A stretch of DNA of 35,992 nucleotides, from NCBI GenBank assembly GCA_017447875.1, contig JAFSMP010000038.1, positions 1-35,992 on the forward strand, read 5' to 3'. Source of the DNA: Paludibacteraceae bacterium (GTDB lineage Bacteria > Bacteroidota > Bacteroidia > Bacteroidales > Paludibacteraceae). The translations under genes were made by a program, and so were the position numbers. The notes under the pieces were generated by a model. That model made no database searches and was not told the origin of the DNA. It was given only the letters and a program-made list of their open reading frames with translations. Shown here piece by piece: positions 1,406 to 35,992 of this stretch. Position 1 is the stretch's first letter, and every line of letters starts with the position of its first letter.

Positions 1406-2999
1406 AAATGCGGACTATGGCGCAGCGGAAGCCTATCTCACATTTGAGCATGACGAGTTTACCATGAAGCCCACCCTTGATGAAAACGGGCGGCTGATAC
1501 CGAGGGAGGATTACCGCATTTCTTCCCTCAACTGTGGGGGCGAGGATTTCGCTGTTGCCTGTATGCGGGCTAATCTCCGCTATGAGAAAAACCAAAAACG
1601 GGAAGATGTGAAAAGCCACCACTATATCATCAGCTTTGACCCACGGGACGGGACAGACAACGGCTTGACCGTAGACCGGGCGCAGGAGCTGGGCGAGCAG
1701 TTCTGTAAAGAGCATTTCCCCGGACACCAAGCCTTAGTCTGCACCCACCCGGACGGGCATAACCACAGCGGCAATATCCATGTGCATATCGTCATCAACT
1801 CCCTGCGGATTTATGAAGTCCCGCTTCTGCCCTACATGGACAGACCAGCCGACACACGGGAGGGCTGCAAGCACCGCTGCACCAACGCCGCTATGGAATA
1901 TTTCAAGAGTGAAGTCATGGAGATGTGCCACCGGGAGGGGCTTTACCAAATCGACCTCCTAAGCGGCAGCAAGGAACGGATAACCGAACGGGAATACTGG
2001 GCGGCAAAGAAAGGACAGCTTGCCCTTGATAAAGAGAACGCTGTCAGAGAAGCCGCAGGACAGCCGACCAAGCCCACCAAGTTTGAAACGGACAAGGCGA
2101 AGCTGCGCCGGACGATACGGCAGGCACTTTCCCAAGCTGGCAGCTTTGACGAATTTTCTTCCCTTTTGCTGCGGGAGGGTGTGACCGTCAAGGAGAGCCG
2201 GGGGCGGCTTTCCTACCTCACGCCGGACAGGACAAAGCCTATCACAGCCCGGAAGCTGGGGGACGATTTTGACAAGGCTGCTGTCCTTGTCCTGCTTACG
2301 CAGAACGCCCACAGAGCCGCCGAACAGAGCAAAGCCATACTCGAATACCCTGCCGCGGTTAAAAAGCTGTCACAAGGGGAAAAAACCACAAAAACCACCC
2401 CGGCAGACAACACCTTGCAGCGCATGGTTGACCGGGAAGCCAAGCGAGCCGAGGGCAAGGGCGTGGGCTATGACCGCTGGGCGGCAAAGCACAACCTAAA
2501 GCAAATGGCAGCTACCGTTACCGCCTATCAGCAGTACGGCTTTTCTTCCCCGGAGGAACTGGACGAAGCCTGTTCTGCCGCCTATACCGCCATGCGGGAA
2601 AGCCTTACAGAGCTGAAGCAGATGGAAAAGACGCTGAACGGGAAAAAGGAGCTGCAACGGCAGGTGCTTGCCTATTCCAAGACCCGCCCTGTCCGGGACG
2701 GGCTGAAACAGCAGAAAAACGCCAAAGCAAAAGCAGCCTACCGTCAGAAGTACGAAAGCGACTTTATCATAGCAGACGCAGCCGCCCGCTATTTCAGGGA
2801 AAACGGCATTTCCAAGCTGCCGAGCTATAAAGCCCTGCAAGCAGAGATTGAAACCCTTATCCAAGAGAAAAACAGCGGCTACAACGATTACCGGGCAAAA
2901 CGGGAGGAATACCGCCGCTTACAGACTGTCAAGGGCAATATCGACCAGATTTTACACCGGGAGCGCAAGCCTGTGAAAAGGCAGGAACAGGAACGATAA
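1377..2999 (+). CDS. MobA/MobL-type relaxase of the IME
   Basis: The relaxase nicks oriT and covalently leads the strand during transfer. The N-terminal HUH domain has HHYIISF near residue 80 and the metal-binding motif HSGNIHVHIVINS (His135 and His137 from the chosen start). The C-terminal third is charged and coiled, and clearly resembles the C-terminus of the ICE relaxase at 31601 (GKGVGYDRWA...NLKQMA, then YAKTR/YSKTR, AARYF/AKRHF, NIEQIL/NIDQIL). I chose TTG at 1377 because family members as I remember them begin MATFKHISSKNA; ATG at 1347 and GTG at 1368 are open in frame. It has 540 residues and appears intact. Confidence 0.85.
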   Translation: MATFKHISSKNADYGAAEAYLTFEHDEFTMKPTLDENGRLIPREDYRISSLNCGGEDFAVACMRANLRYEKNQKREDVKSHHYIISFDPRDGTDNGLTVDRAQELGEQFCKEHFPGHQALVCTHPDGHNHSGNIHVHIVINSLRIYEVPLLPYMDRPADTREGCKHRCTNAAMEYFKSEVMEMCHREGLYQIDLLSGSKERITEREYWAAKKGQLALDKENAVREAAGQPTKPTKFETDKAKLRRTIRQALSQAGSFDEFSSLLLREGVTVKESRGRLSYLTPDRTKPITARKLGDDFDKAAVLVLLTQNAHRAAEQSKAILEYPAAVKKLSQGEKTTKTTPADNTLQRMVDREAKRAEGKGVGYDRWAAKHNLKQMAATVTAYQQYGFSSPEELDEACSAAYTAMRESLTELKQMEKTLNGKKELQRQVLAYSKTRPVRDGLKQQKNAKAKAAYRQKYESDFIIADAAARYFRENGISKLPSYKALQAEIETLIQEKNSGYNDYRAKREEYRRLQTVKGNIDQILHRERKPVKRQEQER

Positions 3000-3184
3000 A
3001 AACCGCCCCAAAATGTACCCGAACCTATACAGAACAAGGGGGCTGCCCCGTACCCTATCCGCAAATACCAAAGGATTTTTTAACGGGCTTATAGGGCAGA
3101 AAAAACCCGAAAATGATACCGAGATGATACAGAATTACCGCCGATACCGCCACACCAGCGGAAACGGCAGAAAGGAGCGCACCC

Positions 3185-3397
3185 ATGCCAAGAATGAGCA
3201 AGAAACGGCGGCTGGAATGGTCTTTTTTCCTGCGGCAAGTGAAAGTCGGGAATTCCACCTGCGATCGTATCACATACAATGACCTCTGCCGGGGCTGTAC
3301 CCATAGCTGCAAGCAGAGCTTCCGGGCGGTTATCATACTCTGCCCCCACTACTACTCCAAACGCCGGAAAAAGGAGGACAGGGACAATGGCAGATAA
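3185..3397 (+). CDS. Small cysteine-rich basic protein of the IME
   Basis: This 70-residue protein begins MPRMSKKRRLEWSFF and has AAGGAGCG upstream. Cysteines in DLCRGCTHSC plus a later Cys in ILCPHYYSKR could form a small zinc site. Short proteins of this pattern recur between the relaxase and replication genes in related elements; I know of no assigned function. It overlaps the next gene by 11 bases. An overlapping frame from 3013 gives a low-quality peptide that I consider a shadow. Confidence 0.65.
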   Translation: MPRMSKKRRLEWSFFLRQVKVGNSTCDRITYNDLCRGCTHSCKQSFRAVIILCPHYYSKRRKKEDRDNGR

Positions 3398-4136
3398 CCG
3401 CAAGTATTACTACCTCAAGCTGAAAGAGAACTTTTTTGACAGCGACTCCATTGTGCTGCTGGAAGATATGAAAGACGGGATTTTATACTCCAATATCCTC
3501 TTGAAGCTGTACTTAAAATCGCTGAAAAACGGCGGGAAATTGCAGCTTGACGAGCATATCCCCTACACAGCGCAGATGATAGCGACACTGACCCGCCACC
3601 AGATAGGGACGGTTGAGAGGGCTTTAGAGATTTTCCGGCAGTTGGGGCTTGTGGAGCAGCTTGACAGCGGGGCTTTCTATATGACCGACATTGAGCTGAT
3701 GATAGGACAGTCCTCTACCGAAGCCGAGCGGAAACGGGCTGCAAGACTGGAAAACAAGGCACTTTTACCGCCCCGGACAAAAGGCGGACATTTGTCCGAC
3801 ATTCGTCCACCAGAGATAGAGATAGAGTTAGAGAAAGAGATAGAGATAGAAAAAGAGAGAGAGGGAGAAACGGGACACCCCGCCCCCGCCGCTTATGGCA
3901 GATACAACAATGTGATACTGACCGATACAGAGCTTTCCGGGCTAAAAACAGAGTTGCCCGACAAGTGGGAGTATTATATTGACCGGCTTTCCTGCCATAT
4001 CGCTTCCACCGGGAAACAGTACCACAGCCATGCAGCCACCATTTACAAGTGGGCGCAGGAGGACGCTGCCAAAGGCAAGGCTGCCCCGAAACAGGGCATA
4101 CCCGATTATTCATGCAAGGAGGGCGAGAGCTTATGA
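3387..4136 (+). CDS. Replication initiator / phage replisome organizer N-terminal domain protein (RepA-like)
   Basis: This 249-residue protein starts at the ATG after AAAAGGAGGA. Residues 1-115 (YYYLKLKENFFDS, then GILYSNILLKLYLKSLKNGGKL) match the winged-helix N-terminal domain of phage replisome organizers and IME RepA proteins, which bind an origin. A Glu/Ile/Lys-only linker lies at about residues 142-165, encoded by a purine-only GAGATA-like repeat (3811-3866). The C-terminal part (ILTDTELSGLKTELPDKWEYYIDRL, YKWAQED) resembles the helper-loader-interacting tail. Its stop overlaps the next start (ATGA). With the DnaC-like neighbour it probably gives the excised circle autonomous replication. 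Confidence 0.8.
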   Translation: MADNRKYYYLKLKENFFDSDSIVLLEDMKDGILYSNILLKLYLKSLKNGGKLQLDEHIPYTAQMIATLTRHQIGTVERALEIFRQLGLVEQLDSGAFYMTDIELMIGQSSTEAERKRAARLENKALLPPRTKGGHLSDIRPPEIEIELEKEIEIEKEREGETGHPAPAAYGRYNNVILTDTELSGLKTELPDKWEYYIDRLSCHIASTGKQYHSHAATIYKWAQEDAAKGKAAPKQGIPDYSCKEGESL

Positions 4137-5172: not shown

Positions 5173-5214
5173 CCGACCATAAAGAAGCAGATTTGACGCT
5201 TTTGCCGCTATACA

Positions 5215-5267
5215 GACAGCCGCCCCATGTGGTACAATCAAGGTACGGAATAGTGGGGCTGGCTGTC
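5215..5267. promoter_or_regulatory. Inverted repeat upstream of the serine recombinase
   Basis: GACAGCCGCCCCA (5215-5227) pairs with TGGGGCTGGCTGTC (5254-5267) with a one-base bulge. Between the arms lie TACAAT (5233-5238), a possible -10 box, and two GGTAC copies. I see no good -35. The arms end 16 bases before the recombinase ATG. If TACAAT is the -10, the left arm would not be transcribed, so the repeat would act as a DNA-level operator rather than an RNA hairpin. Its function is inferred. Confidence 0.5.
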
Positions 5268-5283
5268 GGAAACGGAGGATTTT

Positions 5284-6894
5284 ATGTTAAGACAGACCAA
5301 CCAACAACCAATTACCGCCCTTTACCCAAGACTATCCCATGAGGACGAGCTGCAAGGCGAAAGCAATTCCATTTCCAATCAGAAGCGTATCCTTGAAACC
5401 TATGCAAAGCAGAACGGCTTTTCCAATCTGCGCTGGTACACGGACGACGGTTATTCTGGTGCGAACTTTCAAAGACCCGGTTTTCAAGCCATGCTTGCGG
5501 ACATTGAAGCCGGAAAAGTCGGGACAGTTATCGTAAAGGATATGTCGAGGTTAGGGCGAAACTACCTGCAAGTGGGAATGTACACGGAAATGATTTTCCC
5601 ACAGAAAGGTGTCCGCTTCATCGCTATCAATGACGGAGTGGACAGCGCACAGGGCGACAATGACTTTGCCCCGCTGCGGAATATCTTTAACGAATGGCTG
5701 GTGAGAGATACGAGCAAGAAAATCAAAGCAGTAAAACGCTCAAAAGGCATGAATGGCAAGCCCATCACAAGCAAGCCTGTGTATGGCTACCTCATGGACG
5801 AGGATGAAAATTTCATTATTGACGAGGAAGCTGCACCCGTAGTCAAGCAGATATACAACCTCTGTCTTGCCGGGAATGGTCCGACCAAGATAGCCCGTAT
5901 GCTCACAGAGCAGCAAATCCCCACGCCGGGAACGCTTGAATACCGCAGGACGGGCAGCACCCGCCGCTACCACCCCGGCTATGAGTGCAAGTGGGCGACC
6001 AATACCGTAGTGCATATCCTTGAAAACCGGGAATACACAGGCTGTCTGGTAAATTTCAAGACAGAAAAACTTTCTTACAAAGTCAAGCACAGTGTAGAAA
6101 ATCCCCCGGAAAAGCAAGTGATTTTCGAGAACCACCACGAGCCTATCATAGACACCCAAACATGGGAACGGGTGCAGGAGCTTCGCAAACAGCGCAAACG
6201 CCCAAACCGCTATGATGAAGTGGGTTTGTTCTCCGGCATACTGTTCTGTGCGGACTGCGGCAGCGTGATGTATCAGCAGCGATACCAGACGGACAAGCGC
6301 AAGCAGGACTGTTATATCTGCGGCAACTACAAGAAACGCACCCATGACTGTACGGCGCACTTTATCCGCACCGACCTCTTGACCGCTGGTGTACTCTCCA
6401 ATCTGCGGAAAGTGACCAGCTATGCGGCAAAGCATGAAGCCCGGTTTATGAAACTCTTGATTGAGCAGAACGAGGACGGGGGCAAACGCAGGAACGCCGC
6501 CAAGAAAAAGGAACTGGAAGCCTCCGAGAAACGCATAGCCGAGTTATCCGCTATCTTCAAGCGGCTGTATGAGGACAGCGTGACCGGGCGCATATCAGAC
6601 GAGCGTTTCACAGAGCTGTCGGCAGACTATGAAGCAGAGCAACGGGAGCTGAAAGAAAGAGCCGCTGCTATTCAAGCGGAGCTTTCCAAAGCACAGGAAG
6701 CCACCGTGAACGCAGAAAAGTTTATGAATGTTGTCCGGCGGCATACCAGCTTTGAAGAACTTACCCCTACTCTGCTGCGGGAGTTTGTAGAGAAAATCGT
6801 TGTGCATGAGTGCAGCTATGACGAGAACAAGACCCGCAGACAGGACATTGAGATTTATTATTCTTTTGTTGGCAAGGTGGACTTGCCCGAATAA
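5284..6894 (+). CDS. Large serine recombinase (TnpX/TndX-type integrase of the IME)
   Basis: This 536-residue protein catalyses integration and excision of the IME. The resolvase domain is at residues 10-155, with the nucleophile Ser18 in LYPRLS and the conserved DMSRLGRNY arginines. The recombinase domain follows (YGYLMDEDENF, then the zinc ribbon FCADCGS...DCYICGNY...HDC at about 321-358). A coiled coil and a DUF4368-like C-terminus (LREFVEKIVVHECSYDENKTRRQDIEIYYSF, given here as a region near 495-530) finish it. The start has ACGGAGGA upstream. It reads toward the right attachment site, about 90 bases after its stop. Confidence 0.92.
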   Translation: MLRQTNQQPITALYPRLSHEDELQGESNSISNQKRILETYAKQNGFSNLRWYTDDGYSGANFQRPGFQAMLADIEAGKVGTVIVKDMSRLGRNYLQVGMYTEMIFPQKGVRFIAINDGVDSAQGDNDFAPLRNIFNEWLVRDTSKKIKAVKRSKGMNGKPITSKPVYGYLMDEDENFIIDEEAAPVVKQIYNLCLAGNGPTKIARMLTEQQIPTPGTLEYRRTGSTRRYHPGYECKWATNTVVHILENREYTGCLVNFKTEKLSYKVKHSVENPPEKQVIFENHHEPIIDTQTWERVQELRKQRKRPNRYDEVGLFSGILFCADCGSVMYQQRYQTDKRKQDCYICGNYKKRTHDCTAHFIRTDLLTAGVLSNLRKVTSYAAKHEARFMKLLIEQNEDGGKRRNAAKKKELEASEKRIAELSAIFKRLYEDSVTGRISDERFTELSADYEAEQRELKERAAAIQAELSKAQEATVNAEKFMNVVRRHTSFEELTPTLLREFVEKIVVHECSYDENKTRRQDIEIYYSFVGKVDLPE

Positions 6895-7149: not shown

Positions 7150-8022
7150 ATGGAAATGATAAAGCAGGCCATTATCGAATGGCTGCGTGAAATCCTCGTT
7201 GGGGGCATTTTGAGCAATCTCTCCGGCCTGTTCGATAACGTCAACCAAAAGGTGGGCGAAATAGCCGGTCAGGTCGGCACAACGCCCCAGGCTTGGAACA
7301 GCAGCATCTTCAACATGATCCACACGCTTTCCGACAACGTGATGCTGCCAATCGCCGGTCTCATCCTCGCCTTCGTGATGACGCTGGAGCTGATCCAGAT
7401 GGTCACGGAGAAGAACAACATGCACGGTGACGTGGATACCTGGATGTTCTTCAAGTGGATGTTCAAGACGGCGGCGGCAGTTCTCATCGTTTCAAACACA
7501 TGGAATATCGTCATGGGTGTTTTCGATGTTGCGCAGAGCATCGTGTCAAATGCTGCTGGCGTGGTCATCGGAAACACGGCGATCAATATAGATTCTGTGG
7601 TCGTGAATCTTGAAGACCGGCTCATGGAGATGGACATTGGGCCTCTGTTCGGTCTGTGGTTTCAGTCCGTCATCGTTGGCATTACGATGTGGGCGCTCTC
7701 CATCTGTATTTTCATCGTGGTCTACGGTAGAATGATCGAAATCTACCTCGTAACCTCGGTAGCGCCGATCCCAATGGCGACCATGCTCAACCGGGAGTCC
7801 GGCAGTATGGGGCAAAACTATCTGCGCTCCCTCGCCGCCCTGGGGCTGCAAGCCTTCCTGATTATCGTCTGCGTGGCGATCTACGCCGTCCTGGTTCAAA
7901 ACATTGCCGTGACGGAGGACATCAGCGCCGCGATCTGGACGTGTATGGGATATACGGTACTGCTTTGCTTCACACTCTTCAAGACCGGCTCGATGGCGAA
8001 GAGCGTCCTGAGTGCCCATTGA
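7150..8022 (+). CDS. VirB6/TrbL-like conjugal transfer membrane protein
   Basis: This 290-residue polytopic protein has hydrophobic segments at about 68-88, 99-118, 168-196, 200-214, 221-247 and 256-275. The segment YLVTSVAPIPMATMLNRESGSMGQNYLRSLAALGLQ (near 200-235) is the hallmark of the VirB6-like channel component of Gram-positive type IV secretion systems in this ICE family. It forms part of the inner-membrane channel for DNA transfer. The start follows TAGGAGGG. Its upstream partner, maff2, is broken here by the IME, which could affect transcription reaching this gene. Confidence 0.88.
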   Translation: MEMIKQAIIEWLREILVGGILSNLSGLFDNVNQKVGEIAGQVGTTPQAWNSSIFNMIHTLSDNVMLPIAGLILAFVMTLELIQMVTEKNNMHGDVDTWMFFKWMFKTAAAVLIVSNTWNIVMGVFDVAQSIVSNAAGVVIGNTAINIDSVVVNLEDRLMEMDIGPLFGLWFQSVIVGITMWALSICIFIVVYGRMIEIYLVTSVAPIPMATMLNRESGSMGQNYLRSLAALGLQAFLIIVCVAIYAVLVQNIAVTEDISAAIWTCMGYTVLLCFTLFKTGSMAKSVLSAH

Positions 8023-8034
8023 CGGTGCTGTGCA

Positions 8035-8475
8035 ATGCTGAAACTGATCCCCGTCTCACTCGCAGACGCCAATGCCTTTGTCGCGGAGCATCACCGGCAT
8101 CACAAGCCGGTGCGCGGCCATAAGTTTTCTCTCGGCTGTGAACAGGACGGAGCCCTCGTCGGCGTGGCCATTGTCGGCAGGCCGGTCAGTCGGTATCTGG
8201 ATGATGGAAGGACACTGGAAGTAAACCGGCTGTGTACTACCGGGGAGAGAAACGCTTGCAGCTTTCTCTACGGAGCGGCGGCGCGAGCGGCAAAGGCCCT
8301 CGGCTATCGAAAGATCATCACCTATACCCTCGACACGGAACCCGGCGTGAGTCTCCGCGCCGCAGGCTGGAGCTGCGCCGGTATCGCCGGAGGAAAACGC
8401 TGGACAGGTGTGCGCTGCCCGAAGGAGGACCTATACCCGGCGCAAATGAAGCTGCGCTATGAAAAATATCTGTAA
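8035..8475 (+). CDS. XF1762 family protein (GNAT-like fold)
   Basis: This 146-residue protein contains FVAEHHRHHKPVRGHKFSLG, VGRPVSRYLDDG, LEVNRLCTTGERNACSFLYG and KIITYTLDTEPGVSLRAAGW, the ordered motifs of the XF1762 family. These proteins resemble acetyltransferases and are frequent in conjugative elements and phages; no substrate is established. It lies 12 bases after virB6 and directly before the PrgI gene. It has no strong ribosome site, so it may be co-translated with its neighbours. Confidence 0.8.
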   Translation: MLKLIPVSLADANAFVAEHHRHHKPVRGHKFSLGCEQDGALVGVAIVGRPVSRYLDDGRTLEVNRLCTTGERNACSFLYGAAARAAKALGYRKIITYTLDTEPGVSLRAAGWSCAGIAGGKRWTGVRCPKEDLYPAQMKLRYEKYL

Positions 8476-8489
8476 GGGGGTGTATTCCC

Positions 8490-8921
8490 ATCGCATACGT
8501 CAGCGTCCCCAAGGACCTCAATACCGTCAAGACCAAAGTGCTGTTCAATTTGACCAAACGGCAGCTTATCTGCTTCGGAAGCGGTGCGCTCATCGGCGTC
8601 CCGCTTTTCTTCATGCTCCGAACGCATATCAGCAACAGCGCAGCGGCCATGACGATGATCGTGGTGATGCTCCCATTCTTCCTGCTCGCCATGTATGAGA
8701 AGAACGGACAGCCGCTGGAAAGGATCATACGCAATATCATTCAGGTCTGCTTCCTCCGGCCAAAGGTGCGTCCCTACGAGACAAACAACTTCTATGCCGT
8801 GCTGGAACGGCAGGCAAATCTGGACAAGGAGGTACACGCCATTGTCTACGGCAAGAAAACTCACACGCGCAGAACGCCGCCAGATCGAGGCGGCAATCGC
8901 AAGAGCAAAAAAGCAAGATAA
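8490..8921 (+). CDS. prgI: PrgI family mating-pore protein, probable non-standard ATC start
   Basis: The product reads (M)AYVSVPKDLNTVKTKVLFNL, then two hydrophobic helices (about residues 31-47 and 53-70) and a basic tail. PrgI-family proteins are small VirB3-like membrane partners of VirB4. The conserved N-terminus extends upstream of the first GTG (8538). The only suitable in-frame codon behind the ribosome site AAGGGGG (8474-8480) is ATC at 8490, 9 bases downstream. ATC is a permitted rare initiator. If GTG 8538 were used, the conserved VPKDL segment would be lost. It overlaps virB4 by 80 bases. Confidence 0.75.
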   Translation: MAYVSVPKDLNTVKTKVLFNLTKRQLICFGSGALIGVPLFFMLRTHISNSAAAMTMIVVMLPFFLLAMYEKNGQPLERIIRNIIQVCFLRPKVRPYETNNFYAVLERQANLDKEVHAIVYGKKTHTRRTPPDRGGNRKSKKAR

Positions 8922-11229
8922 AAACAAGAAATCCGCCCAGGACAGCATCCCCATGCAGCGGATGTATCCTGACGGCATCTGCCGCGTGGTGGATAACTAC
9001 TACACAAAAACGATCCAGTTCCAGGACATCAACTATCAGCTCTGCCAGAATGAGGACCAGCAGGCCATCTTCGGGGGCTGGTGCTCCTTCCTCAACTACT
9101 TCGACGCCACAGTGCGCTTCCAGTTTTCCTTTGTGAATCTGTCCGCGACGAAAGAGACCTTCGCCGGGAGCATTGTCATTCCCCGCTGCGGCAACGATGA
9201 CGACAGCATCCGGGAGGAATACGAGGGCTTCCTGCAAGGTCAGTATGCGAAGGGCAATCACGGCAAGCTCAAAACCAAGTATCTGACCTTCGGCATCGAG
9301 GCGGAGTCCCTGAAAGCAGCAAAGCCCCGGCTGGAGCGCCTGGAGATGGATATTCTCAACAACTACAAGCAGCTCGGCGTTATCGCGGAGCCCCTGAACG
9401 GCAGCGAGCGTCTCCGCGTCATGCACGATATGCTCCACCCGGACGAGCCGGAGCCCTTCAACTTCCGCTGGGAGTGGCTGGCTCCTTCCGGTCTGTCCGT
9501 CAAGGACTTTATCGCGCCCACGTCTTTCACCTTCAAGACCGGCAACACCTTCGGCATCGGCAGAAAGATCGGCGCGGTATCCTTCCTGCAAATCCTCGCG
9601 CCGGAGCTCAGTGACCGGATGCTGGCGGACTTCCTGGATATGGAGAGTTCCCTCGTGGTGTCCATGCACGTCCAGTCCGTCGATCAGGTCAAGGCCATCA
9701 AAACCATCAAGCGGAAGATCACTGACCTTCAGAAAATGACCATTGAGGAACAGAAAAAGGCTGTCCGGTCCGGCTACGATATGGACATCATTCCCTCCGA
9801 CCTTGCCACCTACGGCGACGAGGCAAAAAAGCTCCTGCAAGAGCTCCAGAGCCGCAACGAGCGGATGTTCCTGCTGACGTTCACGGTCCTGAACATTGCG
9901 GACAACAAGCGGCAGCTTGACAACAACGTGTTCCAGGCTTCCAGCATCGCACAGAAGTACAACTGTGCGCTGACCCGGCTGGACTTCCGGCAGGAAGAGG
10001 GTCTGATGTCCGCTCTGCCCCTGGCCTACAATCAGATCGAGATTCAGCGGGGGCTGACCACCTCCAGCGTGGCGATCTTCATTCCGTTTACTACCCAAGA
10101 GCTGTTCCAGAGCGGAAAGGAGGCCCTGTACTGTGGGCTCAACGCCCTCTCCAACAACATCATCATGGTGGATCGGAAGCTCCTGAAGAACCCCAACGGT
10201 CTGATCCTCGGCACCCCCGGCAGCGGCAAGTCCTTCTCCGCAAAGCGGGAAATCAGCAACGTCTACTTCGTGACGGACGATGACATCATCATTTGCGACC
10301 CCGAAGCGGAATACGGGGCGCTGGTGGAGCGTCTGCACGGTCAGGTCATCCGTATTTCCCCGGTCTCCGAGGACTATATCAATCCGATGGACCTGAATAT
10401 GAACTACAGCGAGGAAGAGAATCCGCTTTCTCTGAAATCAGACTTCATCCTTTCTCTCTGTGAGCTCATTGTCGGCGGCAAGGACGGGCTGAAGCCTGTG
10501 GAGAAGACCATCATTGATCGCTGCGTCCGTATCGTCTATCAGGACTACCTCAATGACCCGCGCCCGGAGAAGATGCCGATCCTGGAGGACCTCTACAATG
10601 AGCTGCGGAAACAGGATGAAAAGGAAGCGCAGTACATCGCTACGGCTCTTGAAATCTATGTCACCGGCTCTCTGAACGTCTTTAACCACCGCACCAACGT
10701 GGATATTCACAGCCGGATCGTGTCCTACGACATCAAGGAGCTGGGAAAGCAGCTCAAAAAGATCGGTATGCTCATCGTCCAGGATCAGGTCTGGAACCGC
10801 GTGACGGTCAACCGGGAGGCGCACAAGTCCACCCGCTACTTCATTGACGAGATGCACCTGCTGCTGAAGGAGGAACAGACCGCCGCTTACACGGTGGAAA
10901 TCTGGAAGCGGTTCCGTAAATGGGGCGGCATCCCCACTGGCATCACGCAGAATGTGAAGGACCTTCTTTCCTCCCGCGAGGTGGAGAACATCTTTGAGAA
11001 CTCGGACTATATCTATATGCTCAACCAGGCGGCGGGAGACCGGCAGATTCTGGCCAAGCAGCTCAATATCTCCCCGCACCAGCTCTCCTATGTGACCCAT
11101 TCCGGCGAGGGCGAAGGTCTGCTGTTCTATGGCAATACCATCATTCCCTTTGTGGACCATTTCCCGAAGGACACGGAGCTTTACCGGATCATGACCACCA
11201 AATTGCAGGAGACCGCCCCGGCCTCCTGA
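8842..11229 (+). CDS. virB4: VirB4-like conjugation ATPase
   Basis: This 795-residue protein powers the type IV secretion apparatus. Walker A is GTPGSGKS at 457-464 and Walker B is YFIDEMHLLL near 667-676, followed by the conserved GITQNVKDLL region and a C-terminal QLSYVTHSGEGEGLLF. The start is TTG at 8842 because AAGGAGG lies 9 bases upstream and conserved sequence (STARKLTRAERRQIEAAIAR) begins there; the open frame extends to 8695 but reads as a shadow of prgI. It ends 31 bases before the NlpC/P60 gene, within the mating-pore operon. Confidence 0.92.
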   Translation: MSTARKLTRAERRQIEAAIARAKKQDKNKKSAQDSIPMQRMYPDGICRVVDNYYTKTIQFQDINYQLCQNEDQQAIFGGWCSFLNYFDATVRFQFSFVNLSATKETFAGSIVIPRCGNDDDSIREEYEGFLQGQYAKGNHGKLKTKYLTFGIEAESLKAAKPRLERLEMDILNNYKQLGVIAEPLNGSERLRVMHDMLHPDEPEPFNFRWEWLAPSGLSVKDFIAPTSFTFKTGNTFGIGRKIGAVSFLQILAPELSDRMLADFLDMESSLVVSMHVQSVDQVKAIKTIKRKITDLQKMTIEEQKKAVRSGYDMDIIPSDLATYGDEAKKLLQELQSRNERMFLLTFTVLNIADNKRQLDNNVFQASSIAQKYNCALTRLDFRQEEGLMSALPLAYNQIEIQRGLTTSSVAIFIPFTTQELFQSGKEALYCGLNALSNNIIMVDRKLLKNPNGLILGTPGSGKSFSAKREISNVYFVTDDDIIICDPEAEYGALVERLHGQVIRISPVSEDYINPMDLNMNYSEEENPLSLKSDFILSLCELIVGGKDGLKPVEKTIIDRCVRIVYQDYLNDPRPEKMPILEDLYNELRKQDEKEAQYIATALEIYVTGSLNVFNHRTNVDIHSRIVSYDIKELGKQLKKIGMLIVQDQVWNRVTVNREAHKSTRYFIDEMHLLLKEEQTAAYTVEIWKRFRKWGGIPTGITQNVKDLLSSREVENIFENSDYIYMLNQAAGDRQILAKQLNISPHQLSYVTHSGEGEGLLFYGNTIIPFVDHFPKDTELYRIMTTKLQETAPAS

Positions 11230-31600: not shown

Positions 31601-33022
31601 ATGGCCACGACTCGTATCATTTCCATGCACGTCAATCAGGGCAAAACCATTGCCCAATGCCTGACGGACCGGACGGAGTATGCCAAGAACCCGGAGAAAA
31701 CAAAGGGCGGCGAACTGATTTCCTGCTATGCCTGTGACCCCCATACCGCCGATGCGGAGTTTCTACTATCCAAACAGCGGTACGCCATTCTGACCGGGCG
31801 GCGGCAGAAAAACGATGTGATTGCCTACCAGGTACGGCAGTCCTTTAAGCCCGGAGAGATTACGACGGAGGAAGCGAACAAGGTCGGTTATGAATTTGCC
31901 TCCCGGTTTTTGAAGGGAAAACACGCCTTTATCGTGGCGACCCATGTGGATAAGCGGCATATTCATAACCATATTATTTGGAACTCCACCACCCTGGATT
32001 GTACGCACAAATACAGGGATTTTCGGGGCTCCGGCAAAGCGGTTGCCCGTCTGAGCGATATGATCTGCATGGAGCACAGTCTGTCCGTTGTCGAGCATCC
32101 CCGGCTTGGGAACAACAGCTACAACAAATGGCTCGGAAATCGGGCAAAGCCTTCTAACCGGGATTTGCTCTGTAAGGCCATCGACGAGGCGCTGGCAAAG
32201 AAACCTGAATCCTTTGATGCGCTGCTGAAACTGCTGGAGGCAGAGGGCTATTCCATCCGGCGCGGGGCAAACATTACATTCTCCAAGGCCGGACAGAAGA
32301 ATATCCGGCTCCGATCACTTGGGGAAGCATACTCAGAGGCGGCGCTCCGTGCCGTGATTGCCGGTCAGCGGCACCATACGCCGAGGAAGAAACGTGCTGC
32401 CGCCGTGAAAGAGAAGCAGAAGCCCAGCCTCCTGATCGACATCCAGGCCAAGCTGGACGAGGGCAAGGGCGTCGGGTATCAGCGATGGGCGTCGGTGTTC
32501 AACCTGAAACAGATGGCCCAAACCGTGCTCTACTTGCAGGAGCATAGCTTCACAGATTATGAGGAGCTGGCAAGAAAGGCAGATTCCCTCACAGAGCAGG
32601 TGAAGGAGCTTCGGGATACGATCAAACGCTCGGAGCAGCGTATGTCAGAAATCCAAATCCTGAAGACCCATATCATCAACTACGCCAAGACGCGAAAGAC
32701 CTTTGCGGAGTACCGCAAATCCGGCTATGAGAAGTCGTTTTTGGAAGAGCATGAGTCGGAAATCCTGCTGCACCGCGCCGCAAAGCGGCATTTCAACGAG
32801 CTTGGGCTGAAAAAGCTGCCCGCCGTCAAGAGCCTGCAAACAGAATATGCGGAGCTGCTTGCCGCAAAGAAGGAGGCATACGCACAGCTCCATGCGCTCC
32901 GGGATGAGCAAAGGGAATTGCTGATTCACCGGGCCAACATCGAGCAAATCCTCGGCATCCAGAAGGAGCAAAGGGACAAGGAGCAGGAGCACAAAGAACC
33001 TGCGGAAATGAAGCATGAATAA
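31601..33022 (+). CDS. Relaxase of the ICE (MobP/MobA-type)
   Basis: This 473-residue protein has an N-terminal relaxase domain with ISMHVNQGKTIAQCLTDRTE, the early segment of this family, and the HUH metal site HIHNHIIWNS (His120, His122, His124). It has GSGKAVARLSDMICMEHSL and a linker around 200-270. The C-terminal region from about 285 (GKGVGYQRWASVFNLKQMAQ) is coiled and homologous to the IME relaxase C-terminus. The ribosome site is AAGGAGAG. It nicks the ICE oriT and pilots DNA to the mating pore. A strong terminator follows. Confidence 0.9.
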   Translation: MATTRIISMHVNQGKTIAQCLTDRTEYAKNPEKTKGGELISCYACDPHTADAEFLLSKQRYAILTGRRQKNDVIAYQVRQSFKPGEITTEEANKVGYEFASRFLKGKHAFIVATHVDKRHIHNHIIWNSTTLDCTHKYRDFRGSGKAVARLSDMICMEHSLSVVEHPRLGNNSYNKWLGNRAKPSNRDLLCKAIDEALAKKPESFDALLKLLEAEGYSIRRGANITFSKAGQKNIRLRSLGEAYSEAALRAVIAGQRHHTPRKKRAAAVKEKQKPSLLIDIQAKLDEGKGVGYQRWASVFNLKQMAQTVLYLQEHSFTDYEELARKADSLTEQVKELRDTIKRSEQRMSEIQILKTHIINYAKTRKTFAEYRKSGYEKSFLEEHESEILLHRAAKRHFNELGLKKLPAVKSLQTEYAELLAAKKEAYAQLHALRDEQRELLIHRANIEQILGIQKEQRDKEQEHKEPAEMKHE

Positions 33023-33028
33023 CGGCAT

Positions 33029-33074
33029 GACCGCCTGCGTGATGGAGCAATTCATCCCGCAGGCGGTCTTTTTT
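33029..33074 (+). terminator. Rho-independent terminator after the ICE relaxase
   Basis: GACCGCCTGCG (33029-33039) pairs perfectly with CGCAGGCGGTC (33058-33068), followed by six Ts. It ends the transfer operon and abuts the stop of the convergent XRE gene. Confidence 0.92.
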
Positions 33075-33403
33075 CATAGCAATTCGATCATTTTCAAGAC
33101 TCTTTGTTTCTTCTCAGCATCAAAGTATTTCAGTTTTCCCATGATCTGCCGGTCAAGCGTTTCTGCAACATCCTCCTGCTGGAAGGAATACTCTCCCTCC
33201 AGAAAGTAATCCACGCTGCACTGTAGAATGTTCGCAATCCGGACTAGCGTAGTCAAAGAAGGCTTCGCATGGCCGCACTCAATGTTTGATACATGGCTGG
33301 GATTTACATCCAACTGATTTGCAACGAATTCCTGGGTCATTCCCTGATGCTTCCGCCGTTCCTTGATCTTCAAGCCAATCGCTCGAAAATCCAAATCGTC
33401 CAT
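33074..33403 (-). CDS. XRE-family transcriptional repressor
   Basis: This 109-residue protein starts at the ATG at 33403 because GGAGG lies 8 bases upstream on the minus strand; the frame is open further back but has no better signal. The HTH is KIKERRKHQGMTQEFVANQL then NPSHVSNIECGHAKPSLTTL (about 10-55), typical of Cro/C1-type repressors. The C-terminus (YFLEGEYSFQQ...AEKKQRVLKMIELL) is a short dimerisation helix. It diverges from the SLOG gene across a palindrome at 33483-33506, its likely operator. It may keep the ICE or the recombinase module silent. Confidence 0.88.
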   Translation of the reverse strand: MDDLDFRAIGLKIKERRKHQGMTQEFVANQLDVNPSHVSNIECGHAKPSLTTLVRIANILQCSVDYFLEGEYSFQQEDVAETLDRQIMGKLKYFDAEKKQRVLKMIELL

Positions 33404-33482
33404 GTCCCCGCCTCCTCTCCTGAACCGAATATGTGCTAATTCTAATCTATTATTTGTATCAGGATAAGGAGCTAACACAAAA

Positions 33483-33517
33483 TAACATTTGCTATAGCTA
33501 ATGTTATGTGGTAAAAT
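33483..33517 (+). promoter_or_regulatory. Promoter of the SLOG gene with overlapping 24-bp palindromic operator
   Basis: The palindrome runs 33483-33506 (TAACATTTGCTA / TAGCTAATGTTA, with one mismatched pair in 12). It overlaps a -35 box TTGCTA (33489-33494), followed 17 bases later by a -10 box TAAAAT (33512-33517). A protein bound to the palindrome would block this promoter. The likely binder is the divergent XRE repressor; this is inferred from proximity. Extra half-site-like copies (TGCTAAT near 33433, GCTAAC near 33471) lie toward the XRE start. Confidence 0.65.
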
Positions 33518-33566
33518 AATATGGTGCGATTGAAGGTTTATGGAATATGGAATCTGGAGAAGGCCG

Positions 33567-34055
33567 GTGATTCGATTGAGGAACTATCTGGCAGAGAAAT
33601 CCTGCTGTTTCACGGGACATAGGCATATCACGGAGGAAGAGAGACCTATCCTTTGCTCTTGGTTGCGACATGCTATTAGAGAACTTATCACGACTGACGG
33701 TATCACTACCTTCTATGCGGGTGGAGCTTTAGGTTTCGACACTCTGGCCGCTACGATGGTCGTTGAAGCTCGTGAAGTTTTTCCAACTATACGCTTGGTT
33801 ATAGTCCTCCCTTATGCCAAACAAGAAGACCGATGGAGCGACGCAGATGAAGTTATCTGCCTCTCGGAGCAATACTACACTGGCTGCATGTTTGCCCGAA
33901 ACCGCTATCTTGTGGATCATAGTTCTATTTGCGTGTCATATCAAACAAGACAAAGCGGTGGCACGGCTTATACTGTAAAATATGCGACTGCGAGAGGGTT
34001 AAGGATTATAAACCTTGCGCAATTCCATAAGGCGAATACCATTTGTGTTATTTAA
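33567..34055 (+). CDS. SLOG-domain (DUF1273/YpsA-like) protein
   Basis: This is a 162-residue protein with the Rossmann-like SLOG signature: KSCCFTGHRHIT at the start, FYAGGALGFDTLAATMVVEA in the middle, VLPYAKQEDRW, and a late SGGTAYTVKYATARGLRIINL. SLOG proteins bind nucleotide-like ligands and some act in defence signalling; family members are common cargo of mobile elements. I prefer GTG 33567 because GGAG lies 7 bases upstream. ATG 33540 is also in frame but has only GAAGG three bases away. Base composition is markedly more AT-rich than the transfer genes. Confidence 0.8.
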   Translation: MIRLRNYLAEKSCCFTGHRHITEEERPILCSWLRHAIRELITTDGITTFYAGGALGFDTLAATMVVEAREVFPTIRLVIVLPYAKQEDRWSDADEVICLSEQYYTGCMFARNRYLVDHSSICVSYQTRQSGGTAYTVKYATARGLRIINLAQFHKANTICVI

Positions 34056-34101
34056 GCCTTGCGTCAAAGCACGTTGGAGAAATATTACTTTTTTCAATGC
34101 T

Positions 34102-34119
34102 CTATTAGAGCTATTAGAG
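34102..34119. repeat. Tandem 9-bp direct repeat
   Basis: CTATTAGAG occurs twice with no gap (34102-34110 and 34111-34119), and each copy is itself nearly symmetrical (CTC-TATTA-GAG with the preceding base). It lies between the SLOG stop and the leftward terminator. It could be a binding site for an accessory recombination protein; there is no direct evidence. Confidence 0.5.
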
Positions 34120-34127
34120 CGCAGAGC

Positions 34128-34164
34128 AAAAAATGGGATGTAAGCAAAAAAGCCTACATCCCAT
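34128..34164 (-). terminator. Leftward-facing rho-independent terminator outside the left inverted repeat
   Basis: On the minus strand ATGGGATGTA-GGC pairs with GC-TTACATCCCAT around TTTTTT (plus-strand arms 34133-34145 and 34152-34164) and is followed by TTTTT. On the plus strand no T run follows. No minus-strand gene lies to its right in the orientation seen, so its purpose is to stop transcription coming out of the 34224-35658 segment. Confidence 0.75.
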
Positions 34165-34177
34165 TATAGGAGTTTTA

Positions 34178-34231
34178 ATGGATATTAAACATATAGGTAA
34201 ACACGTGATTACCAACCTCTTGATTTCGTAG
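34178..34231 (+). CDS. Possible 17-residue peptide ending inside the left inverted repeat
   Basis: AGGAG sits 5 bases before an ATG that opens MDIKHIGKHVITNLLIS and stops at the TAG within the repeat arm. It could be a leader peptide, or chance. It is reported because the ribosome site is good and the stop is fixed by the recombination site. Confidence 0.25.
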   Translation: MDIKHIGKHVITNLLIS

Positions 34232-34250
34232 AGTGTTTTACCCTACGAAA
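34224..34250 (+). repeat. Left inverted recombination site
   Basis: Arms TTTCGTAGAG and CCCTACGAAA flank the asymmetric spacer TGTTTTA. The arms are complementary except for one position. With two more bases each side (GA...TC) the symmetry extends to 31 bp. It matches the reverse complement of the right site at 26 of 27 positions, while the flanking bases do not match. Short inverted arms around a 6-8 bp spacer are the usual layout of a tyrosine-recombinase core site. Confidence 0.85.
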
Positions 34251-34270
34251 TCGCCCTTGAAGTATTCATA

Positions 34271-34299
34271 ATTTTACACTATGACAAATAATTTGTCAA
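34271..34299 (-). promoter_or_regulatory. Near-consensus outward-facing promoter inside the invertible segment
   Basis: On the minus strand TTGACA (plus 34294-34299) and TAAAAT (plus 34271-34276) are separated by exactly 17 bases (34277-34293). This is 11 of 12 consensus positions for the housekeeping sigma factor. It points left, across the left inverted repeat, into a stretch with no leftward gene and a leftward terminator. It is the strongest promoter match I saw in this region. Confidence 0.75.
34282..34298. promoter_or_regulatory. Perfect 17-bp palindrome overlapping both -35 boxes
   Basis: TGACAAATAATTTGTCA has perfect 8-bp arms around one A. It covers the -35 of the rightward recombinase promoter and five of six bases of the leftward promoter's -35. 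A dimeric repressor bound here would shut both. One of the two XRE proteins nearby is a natural candidate; that assignment is inference. Confidence 0.65.
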
Positions 34300-34321
34300 G
34301 ATGCTCAAACTCAAATATTGT
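34293..34321 (+). promoter_or_regulatory. Probable promoter of the tyrosine recombinase
   Basis: TTGTCA (34293-34298), a 17-base spacer and TATTGT (34316-34321) face the recombinase gene. It is weaker than the opposed promoter and would give a leader of about 120 bases before the ATG at 34449. It lies inside the inverted repeats, so it always travels with the gene. Confidence 0.5.
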
Positions 34322-34448
34322 CAGAGAATGTAAATGTATGACGTTAAAAACCATATACAGTGCCGTGGAAGATGTACATCAGAAGATTGCCCATTGGTTA
34401 TTACCTCGCTTTCTCTGCCAAAATGGTTCTCGAAAGGAGGAAAAAACT

Positions 34449-35570
34449 ATGTCAAAACGTGGGAAAAACATCTACTTCAGAAAAGATGGGCGCTGGGAAG
34501 GGCGATACATCAAGAGCCGTATCAACGAAAAAGTGCAATACGGGTATGTCTTTGGTAAATCATTTGAGGATGTTGAATGCAAGTTGGAAGAGGCGATCAC
34601 TTCAATGACACCTCCTACATTGACGAACAATTTAACATTCAAGGAGTTATCAGCAGGTTACATGATATCTATGGCACCCCAACTGAAACCTTCAAGCGTT
34701 GCCAAGTACGAAAACATCCTGGATTTATATCTGCTCCCGACACTGGGAAAACAATTAATCTCAAGCATCGCACGAACTGATATTCTCTTGCTGCGTCGAA
34801 ATCTTCTTATTTCCGGTGGAACGAATTCTACTGGTTTAGCCCCTAAAACAGTGAACAGTGTCTTATCTCTACTGAAAAACATCCTAGAGTACGGCTCCAG
34901 AGAAAAAGGGCTTCCCATTGCTGACCTGGGCAAAATCTCCGTTCGACAGTCTCAGAAGCCTATGCGTATTCTAAGTAAGATGGAACAGCAACGACTGAGC
35001 GAATATCTTTGTGAGAACCAGTCAGCTTGTAATCTAGGAATACTGCTCTGTCTGTATACGGGATTGAGAATTGGCGAAATCTGTGCATTGAAATGGGGGG
35101 ATGTTCACATTGATGACAATTATCTCTATGTGCATCAAACCATGCAGCGGATACAGCGTAAAGGAAGCATTGAGAAAAAAACGGAGATTATCATTCAACC
35201 TCCCAAAAGTGACTGTTCTATCAGAATAATCCCCATCCCTTCTGAGCTATCTCAATTGCTCCTGCCAGAGGTGAAGGAAGACGAGGCTTTTTTCCTAACA
35301 GGTTGCCCCCATGTCTTTATCGAACCAAGATGCCTTGAGAACAAGTTCAAGAGCGTAACCATGGCATGTGGCATCGACAACTTAAACTTCCATGCCCTGA
35401 GACACTCATTTGCTACCCGCTGCGTAGAACTTGGCTTCGACATAAAAAGCCTGAGCGAGATTCTCGGTCATGCAAACGTAAATATCACCCTGAATCGCTA
35501 TGTCCACCCCTCAATGTCTCTCAAACAGGAGAATATGAACAAGCTGTCAGGTCTCTTGACCATATTATAA
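34449..35570 (+). CDS. Tyrosine recombinase (site-specific integrase/invertase)
   Basis: This 373-residue protein starts at the ATG after AAAGGAGG; the frame is open back to 34281 but the longer N-terminus is not family-like. Residues 1-40 (KRGKNIYFRKDGRWEGRYIK) form an AP2-like arm-binding domain, followed by a core-binding domain (LTFKELSAGYM...). The catalytic domain has Arg207 in YTGLRIGEICALKW, His315 and Arg318 in HALRHSFATR, His341 in LGHAN and the nucleophile Tyr351 in NRYVHPSM. All expected residues are present. It lies between inverted recombination-like sites, suggesting it inverts its own segment; it may instead be the ICE integrase. Confidence 0.93.
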   Translation: MSKRGKNIYFRKDGRWEGRYIKSRINEKVQYGYVFGKSFEDVECKLEEAITSMTPPTLTNNLTFKELSAGYMISMAPQLKPSSVAKYENILDLYLLPTLGKQLISSIARTDILLLRRNLLISGGTNSTGLAPKTVNSVLSLLKNILEYGSREKGLPIADLGKISVRQSQKPMRILSKMEQQRLSEYLCENQSACNLGILLCLYTGLRIGEICALKWGDVHIDDNYLYVHQTMQRIQRKGSIEKKTEIIIQPPKSDCSIRIIPIPSELSQLLLPEVKEDEAFFLTGCPHVFIEPRCLENKFKSVTMACGIDNLNFHALRHSFATRCVELGFDIKSLSEILGHANVNITLNRYVHPSMSLKQENMNKLSGLLTIL

Positions 35571-35631
35571 GCCGTCATCTTTGCCGTCACGATATCGTCC
35601 AGCTTTTGAAAACCAAAGGGAATAATGATCT

Positions 35632-35658
35632 TTTCGTAGAGTAAAACACTCTACGAAA
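35632..35658 (-). repeat. Right inverted recombination site
   Basis: Arms TTTCGTAGAG and CTCTACGAAA are perfectly complementary around spacer TAAAACA, the reverse complement of the left spacer TGTTTTA. It lies 61 bases after the recombinase stop and 39 bases before the XRE start codon. It differs from the left site at one position. Confidence 0.85.
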
Positions 35659-35697
35659 GATTTGATGACACATTTTCTGCTGGAGGGGATGACTGCT

Positions 35698-35992
35698 ATG
35701 GTTCAGGAAAGATATTTAGTAACTGAGGACTACAAAGTTGCCAGCACAGAAATTCTAGTCGAAAATCTGCCATCGTTAAGAGCAAGAATTGGCATCACAC
35801 AAGAAGAACTGGCGAATATCATTGGTATATCACGACAGACTTACTACTCTCTTGAAACCGGAAAACGAGAAATGTCATGGCCGATATTTCTTGCTATTGT
35901 CTTTATCTTCGACTCAGTAAAAGAGACCTCTGAAATGATAAGAGATTTGAGGATTTTTCCCATTGATCTTATTATGCAGTTTAACGGTGAGT
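35698..35992 (+). CDS. XRE-family regulator, 3' end outside window
   Basis: Ninety-eight codons are visible. The start has TGGAGGGG about 8 bases upstream. The HTH lies near 28-60: LPSLRARIGITQEELANIIG then ISRQTYYSLETGKREMSW. A hydrophobic stretch (PIFLAIVFIFDS) and IRDLRIFPIDLIMQF follow. I see no convincing sigma-70 promoter in the 127 bases between the recombinase stop and this start, apart from read-through. If the adjacent segment inverted, the strong promoter would sit about 60-75 bases upstream of this ATG. It is probably the first gene of a switched operon. Confidence 0.85.
   Translation, partial: MVQERYLVTEDYKVASTEILVENLPSLRARIGITQEELANIIGISRQTYYSLETGKREMSWPIFLAIVFIFDSVKETSEMIRDLRIFPIDLIMQFNGE

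Follow-up and report, generated by a model that had tools for sequence, protein, structure and literature searches.

The right end of contig JAFSMP010000038.1 from a Paludibacteraceae bacterium probably carries an invertible promoter cassette that is flipped by an enzyme encoded within it, a reading to which we give a probability of roughly 80% on the strength of the sequence and its homologues, and the cassette would be self-contained since the recombinase gene lies inside the segment. The window, that is, the whole stretch of DNA analyzed, is the entire contig (35,992 nucleotides), which belongs to an assembly of 70 contigs that is 76.7% complete. In the proposed mechanism, the recombinase would recombine two inverted 27-bp sites and thereby flip a 1.4-kb segment that holds its own gene and, diverging from it, a promoter that faces outwards. 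As assembled, this promoter would fire leftwards into a terminator, leaving the HTH gene beyond the opposite site without a predicted promoter (OFF). Inversion would bring the outward promoter just within the right site, from where it would transcribe the HTH gene and any operon behind it (ON).

The left recombination site, TTTCGTAGAG-TGTTTTA-CCCTACGAAA, occupies positions 34224 to 34250 on the forward strand and its inverted copy, the right site, positions 35632 to 35658 on the reverse strand, exactly where the original prediction had placed them; both were recovered by an inverted-repeat search and by a pattern scan. The two 27-nt sites are 96% complementary (26/27) with 1381 nt between them, and the other inverted pairs between positions 33000 and 35992, four in all, measure 14 to 22 nt each. 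Each site also has the predicted internal layout, an inverted repeat around an asymmetric 7-nt spacer, with arms that pair at 9/10 positions on the left and are perfectly palindromic (10/10) on the right. When both strands were scanned, the site pattern matched at these two places only, while 100 dinucleotide shuffles of the whole window averaged 0.00 matches, and no third copy was reported in a DNA search of the 70-contig assembly. As one spacer reads TGTTTTA and the other its reverse complement, the two sites have opposite polarity, and by established rules inverted sites of opposite spacer polarity give inversion and not excision. With 27 nt and 26/27 identity, the repeats fall within the 10 to 40 nt by which invertons are recognized in the accessible part of PMC11892184.

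The sole accepted gene between the sites (34449 to 35570, forward strand, 1122 bp) encodes a tyrosine recombinase of 373 aa, with Pfam matches to Phage_integrase (PF00589, 1.7e-24) and Phage_int_SAM_3 (8.2e-07), in which Pfam, an alignment, and a structural model place a predicted arm-binding-like N-terminal domain, a core-binding domain, and a catalytic domain. Residues R207, K253, H315, R318, H341, and Y351 are invariant in 13 sequences (the window protein and 12 homologues). We take these six to be the residues with catalytic roles in tyrosine recombinases, so that the predicted single gene with a complete catalytic set was indeed recovered. The nearest relative in both the structural comparison and the PDB sequence search, among the matches listed, was the Tn1549 integrase. 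The structural comparison mostly spans residues 59 to 348, the N-terminal domain being reached, among the matches listed, only by two structural matches to lambda integrase, and the first 60 aa had no PDB match by sequence. In the model, the N-terminus consists of three strands and a helix (E8-10, E16-25, E28-36, H39-52), and the order of these elements in the 60 aa would fit the arm-binding domain as described in the excerpted text of PMC8138268. The model also contains four strands between residues 225 and 262, which might correspond to the strand insertion that IntTn916-type integrases have between strands two and three of the catalytic domain.

Matches to the enzyme at 1e-40 occurred in 2 of 101 genus genomes (its own and G027), and matches at 1e-60 occurred in 2 of 358 family genomes and in 1 of 395 phylum-drawn genomes (its own). 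An order-level profile search over 393 genomes gave 16 matches, spread over 14 of them; 13 of these 16 begin no earlier than profile position 51 and therefore lack the N-terminal domain, which is spanned only by the two copies from the own genome and by L146. The second copy belongs to a diverged cassette in the same genome (L009, G000:C31:18035-19132), with a recombinase 34% identical to that of the window, a perfect inverted pair of 26-bp sites whose sequence is unlike the window's, and an adjoining lipoprotein-like gene.

Twenty nucleotides inside the left site, a near-consensus outward promoter is predicted on the reverse strand (34271 to 34299, TTGACA-17-TAAAAT, 11/12). Scanning positions 33900 to 35992 gave 11 promoter-like sites against a shuffle mean of 5.2, and only the one at 34299-34271 reached 11/12. 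Just outside the left site lies a predicted intrinsic terminator on the same strand (34132 to 34165), in which a 14-bp stem, the longest of the region, is followed by T's; the terminator scan found 4 stems against a shuffle mean of 1.4. A leftward transcript from the outward promoter would thus be expected to end after about 130 nt in the assembled orientation. On the other side, the promoter scan found no promoter for the HTH gene in the 39 bp between the right site and its start at 35698, and when the segment was reversed in silico, the −10 end of the outward promoter came to lie 87 nt before the ATG of the HTH gene. We therefore expect the orientation in the assembly to be OFF, given that the promoter aims leftwards into the terminator and that inversion would aim it at the HTH gene. 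An internal promoter that faces the neighbour once flipped, which is present here by sequence prediction, is likewise among the features of invertons in the available portion of PMC11892184. The original prediction held that the enzyme flips its own gene together with a promoter and so switches the gene at 35698; the predicted promoter and the terminator facing it were found, while the inversion itself stays at the level of a prediction. A 17-bp palindrome (TGACAAAT-A-ATTTGTCA, 34282 to 34298), a candidate operator, covers the −35 element of the outward promoter as well as that of a weak candidate promoter for the recombinase gene (34293 to 34321, forward strand).

The proposed target is an XRE-type HTH regulator gene (35698 to 35992, forward strand; HTH_3, 4.5e-08) that is truncated by the contig end, 334 bp beyond the right site, and whose product also shows a weak sub-cutoff match (9e-4) to the Xer recombination activation factor family. 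Six loci (the window, L011, L012, L025, L027, and L028) have a homologue of this gene on the right of the cassette, starting about 25 to 65 bp from the site, and operons follow wherever the contig continues. Behind the HTH gene we found HerA/DUF87 ATPases (L012 and L028), an SPFH/zinc-ribbon protein (L025), and, in L027, a protein of some 390 aa that had no match in Pfam, whereas the records of the window and L011 stop there. Among 29 loci with HTH homologues, L109 and L110 were read by eye and the others were checked just for a nearby recombinase. These two are free of the cassette and carry a fixed promoter directly upstream of the HTH gene (TTGACA-17-TAAAAT and TTGACA-17-TATAAT). Both fixed promoters, read by eye, have GACA at the ninth spacer base, a motif that is exact in L011 and L027 and has one mismatch in the other four invertible promoters. 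More speculatively, the switch might be under feedback from the HTH protein, through its binding at the promoter. In L109 (3764 to 3977), a serine-recombinase-like frame (by eye) adjoins the HTH gene with the fixed promoter between them and no cassette, and this locus is possibly a cassette-free counterpart of L025/L027.

In other loci the target place is taken by different genes, namely, by large secreted-looking proteins (L022 and L034) and a lipoprotein-like gene (L009), as judged from translations, an annotated WxL gene (L021), a TadZ-like gene (L013, 3009 to 4118) that possibly marks a Tad pilus locus, and a GTPase-like protein with a sub-cutoff Pfam match (L035). Because surface-protein or other genes occupy the same place elsewhere, the constant element is the promoter and not the HTH gene. 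In L031 the promoter side is occupied by an HKD+Snf2-type helicase gene (PADLOC, 1.4e-57) whose longest reading begins 57 bp beyond the site, an arrangement that would be expected of the ON state. Of 9 target-side proteins, 6 were without a PADLOC match. XRE genes to the left of several cassettes were considered as alternative targets and dropped; since a terminator stands between promoter and gene in L028, L012, L013, and L009, we treated them as neighbours, and no such terminator was found in L011 or L032. In L030, a phage tail-fibre-like coding sequence (after position 1456, by eye) lies to the right of the recombinase gene with a half-site match only (TTTCGYAGAG), and the switch may there act on the fibre gene.

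Homologues were gathered from genome contigs, genome searches, plasmid and phage records, and IMG/VR searched with a 13-protein profile (the best 80 of 190), and site pairs were sought as inverted repeats between 600 bp upstream and 600 bp downstream of each recombinase gene. Close homologues were defined by a tblastn score of at least 175 bits to the window enzyme, which gave 36 loci including the window, 33 of them with enough flank; this limit and the site score of 14 were both chosen after the data had been seen, and L135 to L148 lie outside the site-pair counts. An inverted site pair was present in 27 of the 33 close homologues compared to 3 of 51 distant ones (Fisher p 4e-13). The original prediction had named conservation of the recombinase without its sites as evidence against it, and the opposite was found in these 27 loci, which keep the pair even as its sequence changes: TTTCGTAGAGTGTTTTACCCTACGAAA in the window, TTGCGTAGAACTTTTACTTCTACGAA in L009, and others in Enterococcus, with the two copies agreeing within a locus. 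Six of the 33 have no clear pair (L023, L024, L026, L030, L008, and L014). L023 and L024 are identical over 9434 bases and have one side rearranged, the left flank of L026 ends with its contig, and the pair in L008 is weak. In L014, which was excluded from the 27, the surroundings of the recombinase gene yielded no short site pair; a 0.98-kb inverted duplication (2790 to 3768 and 5189 to 6168, 87%) brackets that gene, suggesting a putative two-target toggle.

The outward promoter at the left end was better than shuffles (p ≤ 0.05, 100 shuffles each) in 22 of the 27 site-bearing loci, the window included, and three control placements gave 1/27, 0/27, and 2/27. It was no better than shuffles in L034, L101, L103, L104, and L105, the last two of which are 98.9% alike across most of their length. 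A terminator facing the promoter and starting within 70 nt of the left site was found in 12/27 loci compared to 2/27 on the right side (p 0.004), where the two cases are a strong terminator in L016 and, in the window, a hairpin within the HTH gene. With its terminator on the far side, L016 looks like a locus caught ON. The shuffles behind the counts of site pairs, promoter placements, facing terminators, and the GTCA pairs described below preserve base composition only.

On a tree of 92 rows, the 26 site-bearing rows were clustered (10 changes against a shuffled mean of 23.0, with 0/500 as low), do not form one clade, and the deepest split is weakly supported. Homologous units were found in Ruminococcus, Vescimonas, and Enterococcus plasmids, an Erysipelotrichaceae MAG, and faecal phage-like contigs. 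In L015, L016, and L018, the recombinase gene extends at its 3′ end into the right site, which thus encodes the C-terminal residues of the enzyme. Downstream of its cassette, the Enterococcus faecalis plasmid locus L020 has a perfect tandem array (7528 to 9089) with a repeat unit of about 264 bp.

A GTCA-N8-GTCA pair (GTCATCTTTGCCGTCA, 35574 to 35589, forward strand) could, from its motif, be an arm-type site, and such a pair lies beside 24 of the 33 recombinase genes of close homologues. The motif had been spotted by eye in L007, L008, L024, L026, L030, and the window before it was counted, which makes the count post hoc; without those six loci and L023, an upstream pair remained in 15/26 loci and a downstream pair in 4/26. 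The pairs are perhaps arm-type binding sites of the N-terminal domain of the recombinase.

The window cassette seems to be hosted by an ICE-like element, as suggested by the CD1110-type VirB4 and topoisomerase III genes upstream of it, both above the NCBIfam cut-offs, and by a relaxase-like gene (31601 to 33022) below the cut-off. A large serine recombinase gene (5284 to 6894) and a second mobilisation-like ORF (1347 to 2999), the latter judged by its translation alone, are also present, and together with the relaxase-like gene they suggest nested elements. The non-target flank of the cassette carries two genes identified by Pfam, an SLOG gene (YspA/PF06908; 33540 to 34055, forward strand) and an XRE-type regulator gene (33074 to 33478, reverse strand). 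Distant homologues of the latter (29 to 33%) occur on the same side in L009, L011, and L028 and on the opposite side in L023/L024, a degree of resemblance that perhaps reflects general HTH likeness only.

The best case for inversion comes from comparing L011 with L024. The left flank of L011 (3272 to 3823) matches the right flank of L024 (6741 to 6194, minus strand) at 82% over 560 nt, running into the site, and in L024 the sequence as far as 6214 matches the 3′ part of the L011 recombinase gene together with its right site (to 5213). The junction within the site would be the join expected from inversion; L024 is without the other site and without the promoter. A flanking XRE gene also swaps sides between L011 or L028 and L023/L024 (86% and 72%) and between L012 and L026 (82%), and a more weakly matching one does so between L013 and L031 (36%). 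The SLOG gene of the window has its homologue across the recombinase, on the opposite side, in L026 (45% identity) and, more weakly, in L031 (32%). All of these cross-locus flips compare diverged loci and involve genes of common families. A flip between L015 and L016 was dropped, as a second flank gene lies on the same side in both, and one between L019 and L036, based on a serine-recombinase-like gene, is weak because the L036 record ends at its recombinase gene.

Near-identical cassettes of Enterococcus raffinosus were in one orientation in all copies (three cassettes with 3, 4, and 2 records, including the query); the 4 records of the second contain most of it, and one is 81% identical. The E. 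faecalis query L020 was covered by its own record only. No flipped form of the window locus was found among close relatives, that is, in family genomes searched with the left flank and in phage and plasmid records: the left flank (33030 to 34260) had no match longer than about 40 nt among the other 357 family genomes, phage records cover 5 to 6% of positions 33480 to 35992, and plasmid records had no match to that interval. Invertons as described in PMC11892184 show both orientations in reads from one population. The flipped form that was predicted to occur in related genomes was found between diverged homologous loci and not in this species or among E. raffinosus strains, and for that reason inversion of the window copy is still something that we infer. 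As read from the sequence, the recombinase would invert this copy and the outward promoter would be active.

The single orientation seen in this assembly, and likewise in the E. raffinosus cassettes, would also be expected of a locked relic, an ancestral cassette that no longer flips and whose HTH gene stays silent or receives transcription running on from the recombinase gene, and L023/L024 suggest that one site and the promoter can be lost. We consider this unlikely, since the 373-aa frame is intact with every catalytic residue, both sites are intact to 26/27, and the promoter and terminator are near-ideal. The kinship of the enzyme raises a different alternative, in which it is the integrase of a small mobile element and the repeats are the termini of that element and not inversion sites. 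Among the matches listed, Tn1549 integrase is its nearest relative in structure and in the PDB sequence search, its predicted arm-binding-like domain is typical of mobile-element integrases in the sections of PMC8138268 at hand, the flanks differ among many loci, and E. raffinosus Er676 matched one flank only of one cassette. Inverted sites of opposite spacer polarity should nevertheless yield inversion rather than excision, an outward promoter with a facing terminator is unexpected for an insertion element, and several diverged loci have the cassette in an unchanged position next to flank or target genes that are related, all of which makes a mobile element very improbable here.

The segment might instead invert for the sake of the recombinase itself, or to produce a leftward antisense or short RNA, with the HTH gene a mere neighbour or a regulator of recombination. 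The position of the 17-bp palindrome over both divergent promoter predictions is in line with this, as is the weak, sub-cutoff match of the HTH product to the Xer recombination activation factor family (9e-4), but, while six loci have an HTH gene about 25 to 65 bp from the site, with operons behind it where the contig continues, others have surface-protein or different genes there, so that the promoter is what stays constant, and this reading is very improbable. We therefore favour an invertible promoter cassette that acts on the adjoining gene.

Taken together, these loci might belong to one family of promoter cassettes that flip themselves, are portable and often insulated, and occur in Bacillota as well as in plasmids, ICE-like elements, and phage-like contigs, a generalization that we put forward tentatively and at somewhat less than even odds. 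In such a family, an arm-binding, integrase-type tyrosine recombinase would have turned into a dedicated invertase with its own promoter, core sites, and GTCA-N8-GTCA arm sites, and with a terminator alongside in many loci, providing phase variation for the adjoining gene (surface, WxL, pilus-type, HerA, SPFH, or helicase conflict operons), in some cases through a first-gene HTH regulator that may feed back. Enzyme, sites, and promoter would form one unit, and homologous units precede very different genes. This provides a search rule, by which inverted sites around an integrase-type gene with a divergent promoter point to phase-variable surface or defence-like operons. The rule could be useful in lineages with few reported invertons; for Firmicutes_A (Clostridia-like), one study gives a median of 3 per genome in the part of PMC11892184 that was accessible. 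It also predicts that some annotated "site-specific integrases" in such genomes are switches and not element integrases, and the cassette might serve as a compact part for synthetic ON/OFF control.

In the titles and abstract openings of the matches listed, from literature mostly without subscription papers, this cassette family was undescribed, and the portion of PMC6458436 that was available contained nothing on this kind of cassette. The arm-binding tyrosine recombinases treated in the excerpt of PMC8138268 are described as mobile-element enzymes. The integrases of Tn1549 and Tn916 (the IntTn916 subgroup) move elements, whereas the window gene lies between inverted sites, an arrangement that should not allow excision.

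Hin, a serine enzyme, is the classical case of a self-inverting segment, and the promoter of that segment faces the neighbouring operon in one orientation. As in the window, the recombinase gene of the Salmonella Hin/H segment lies inside the inverted DNA (PMC5903667, in part), and the Hin enzyme, of the serine type, is under the control of an enhancer to which Fis binds (PMC3798978, in part). Unlike Hin, the window enzyme is an unrelated tyrosine recombinase with the R-K-H-R-H-Y set (PF00589) and not a serine recombinase, and its cassette, built around an integrase-type enzyme, has sites of 27 bp, a GTCA pair, and a terminator that faces the promoter. The accessible text of PMC5903667 also describes, from sequencing reads, a putative 844-bp invertible segment of Providencia stuartii near a fimbrial locus that, like the window segment, encloses a recombinase gene, although it has 14-bp imperfect repeats, is shorter than the 1122-bp window gene alone, and comes from another phylum than the relatives named here.

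The fimS switch with FimB-FimE, the RecV switches of Clostridioides difficile, and the invertible promoters of Bacteroidales resemble the window in that inverted repeats enclose a promoter and expression is switched ON or OFF. The enzyme gene of the fimS and RecV switches lies outside the flipped DNA, and to our knowledge this is true of the known tyrosine-recombinase switches. In the invertible promoters of Bacteroidales, which in the case of resistance genes also ride on ICEs, the invertase gene adjoins the inverted DNA and is not within it, according to the accessible part of PMC8748976. What sets the window apart from these three systems is that its recombinase gene is located inside the segment that would be flipped.
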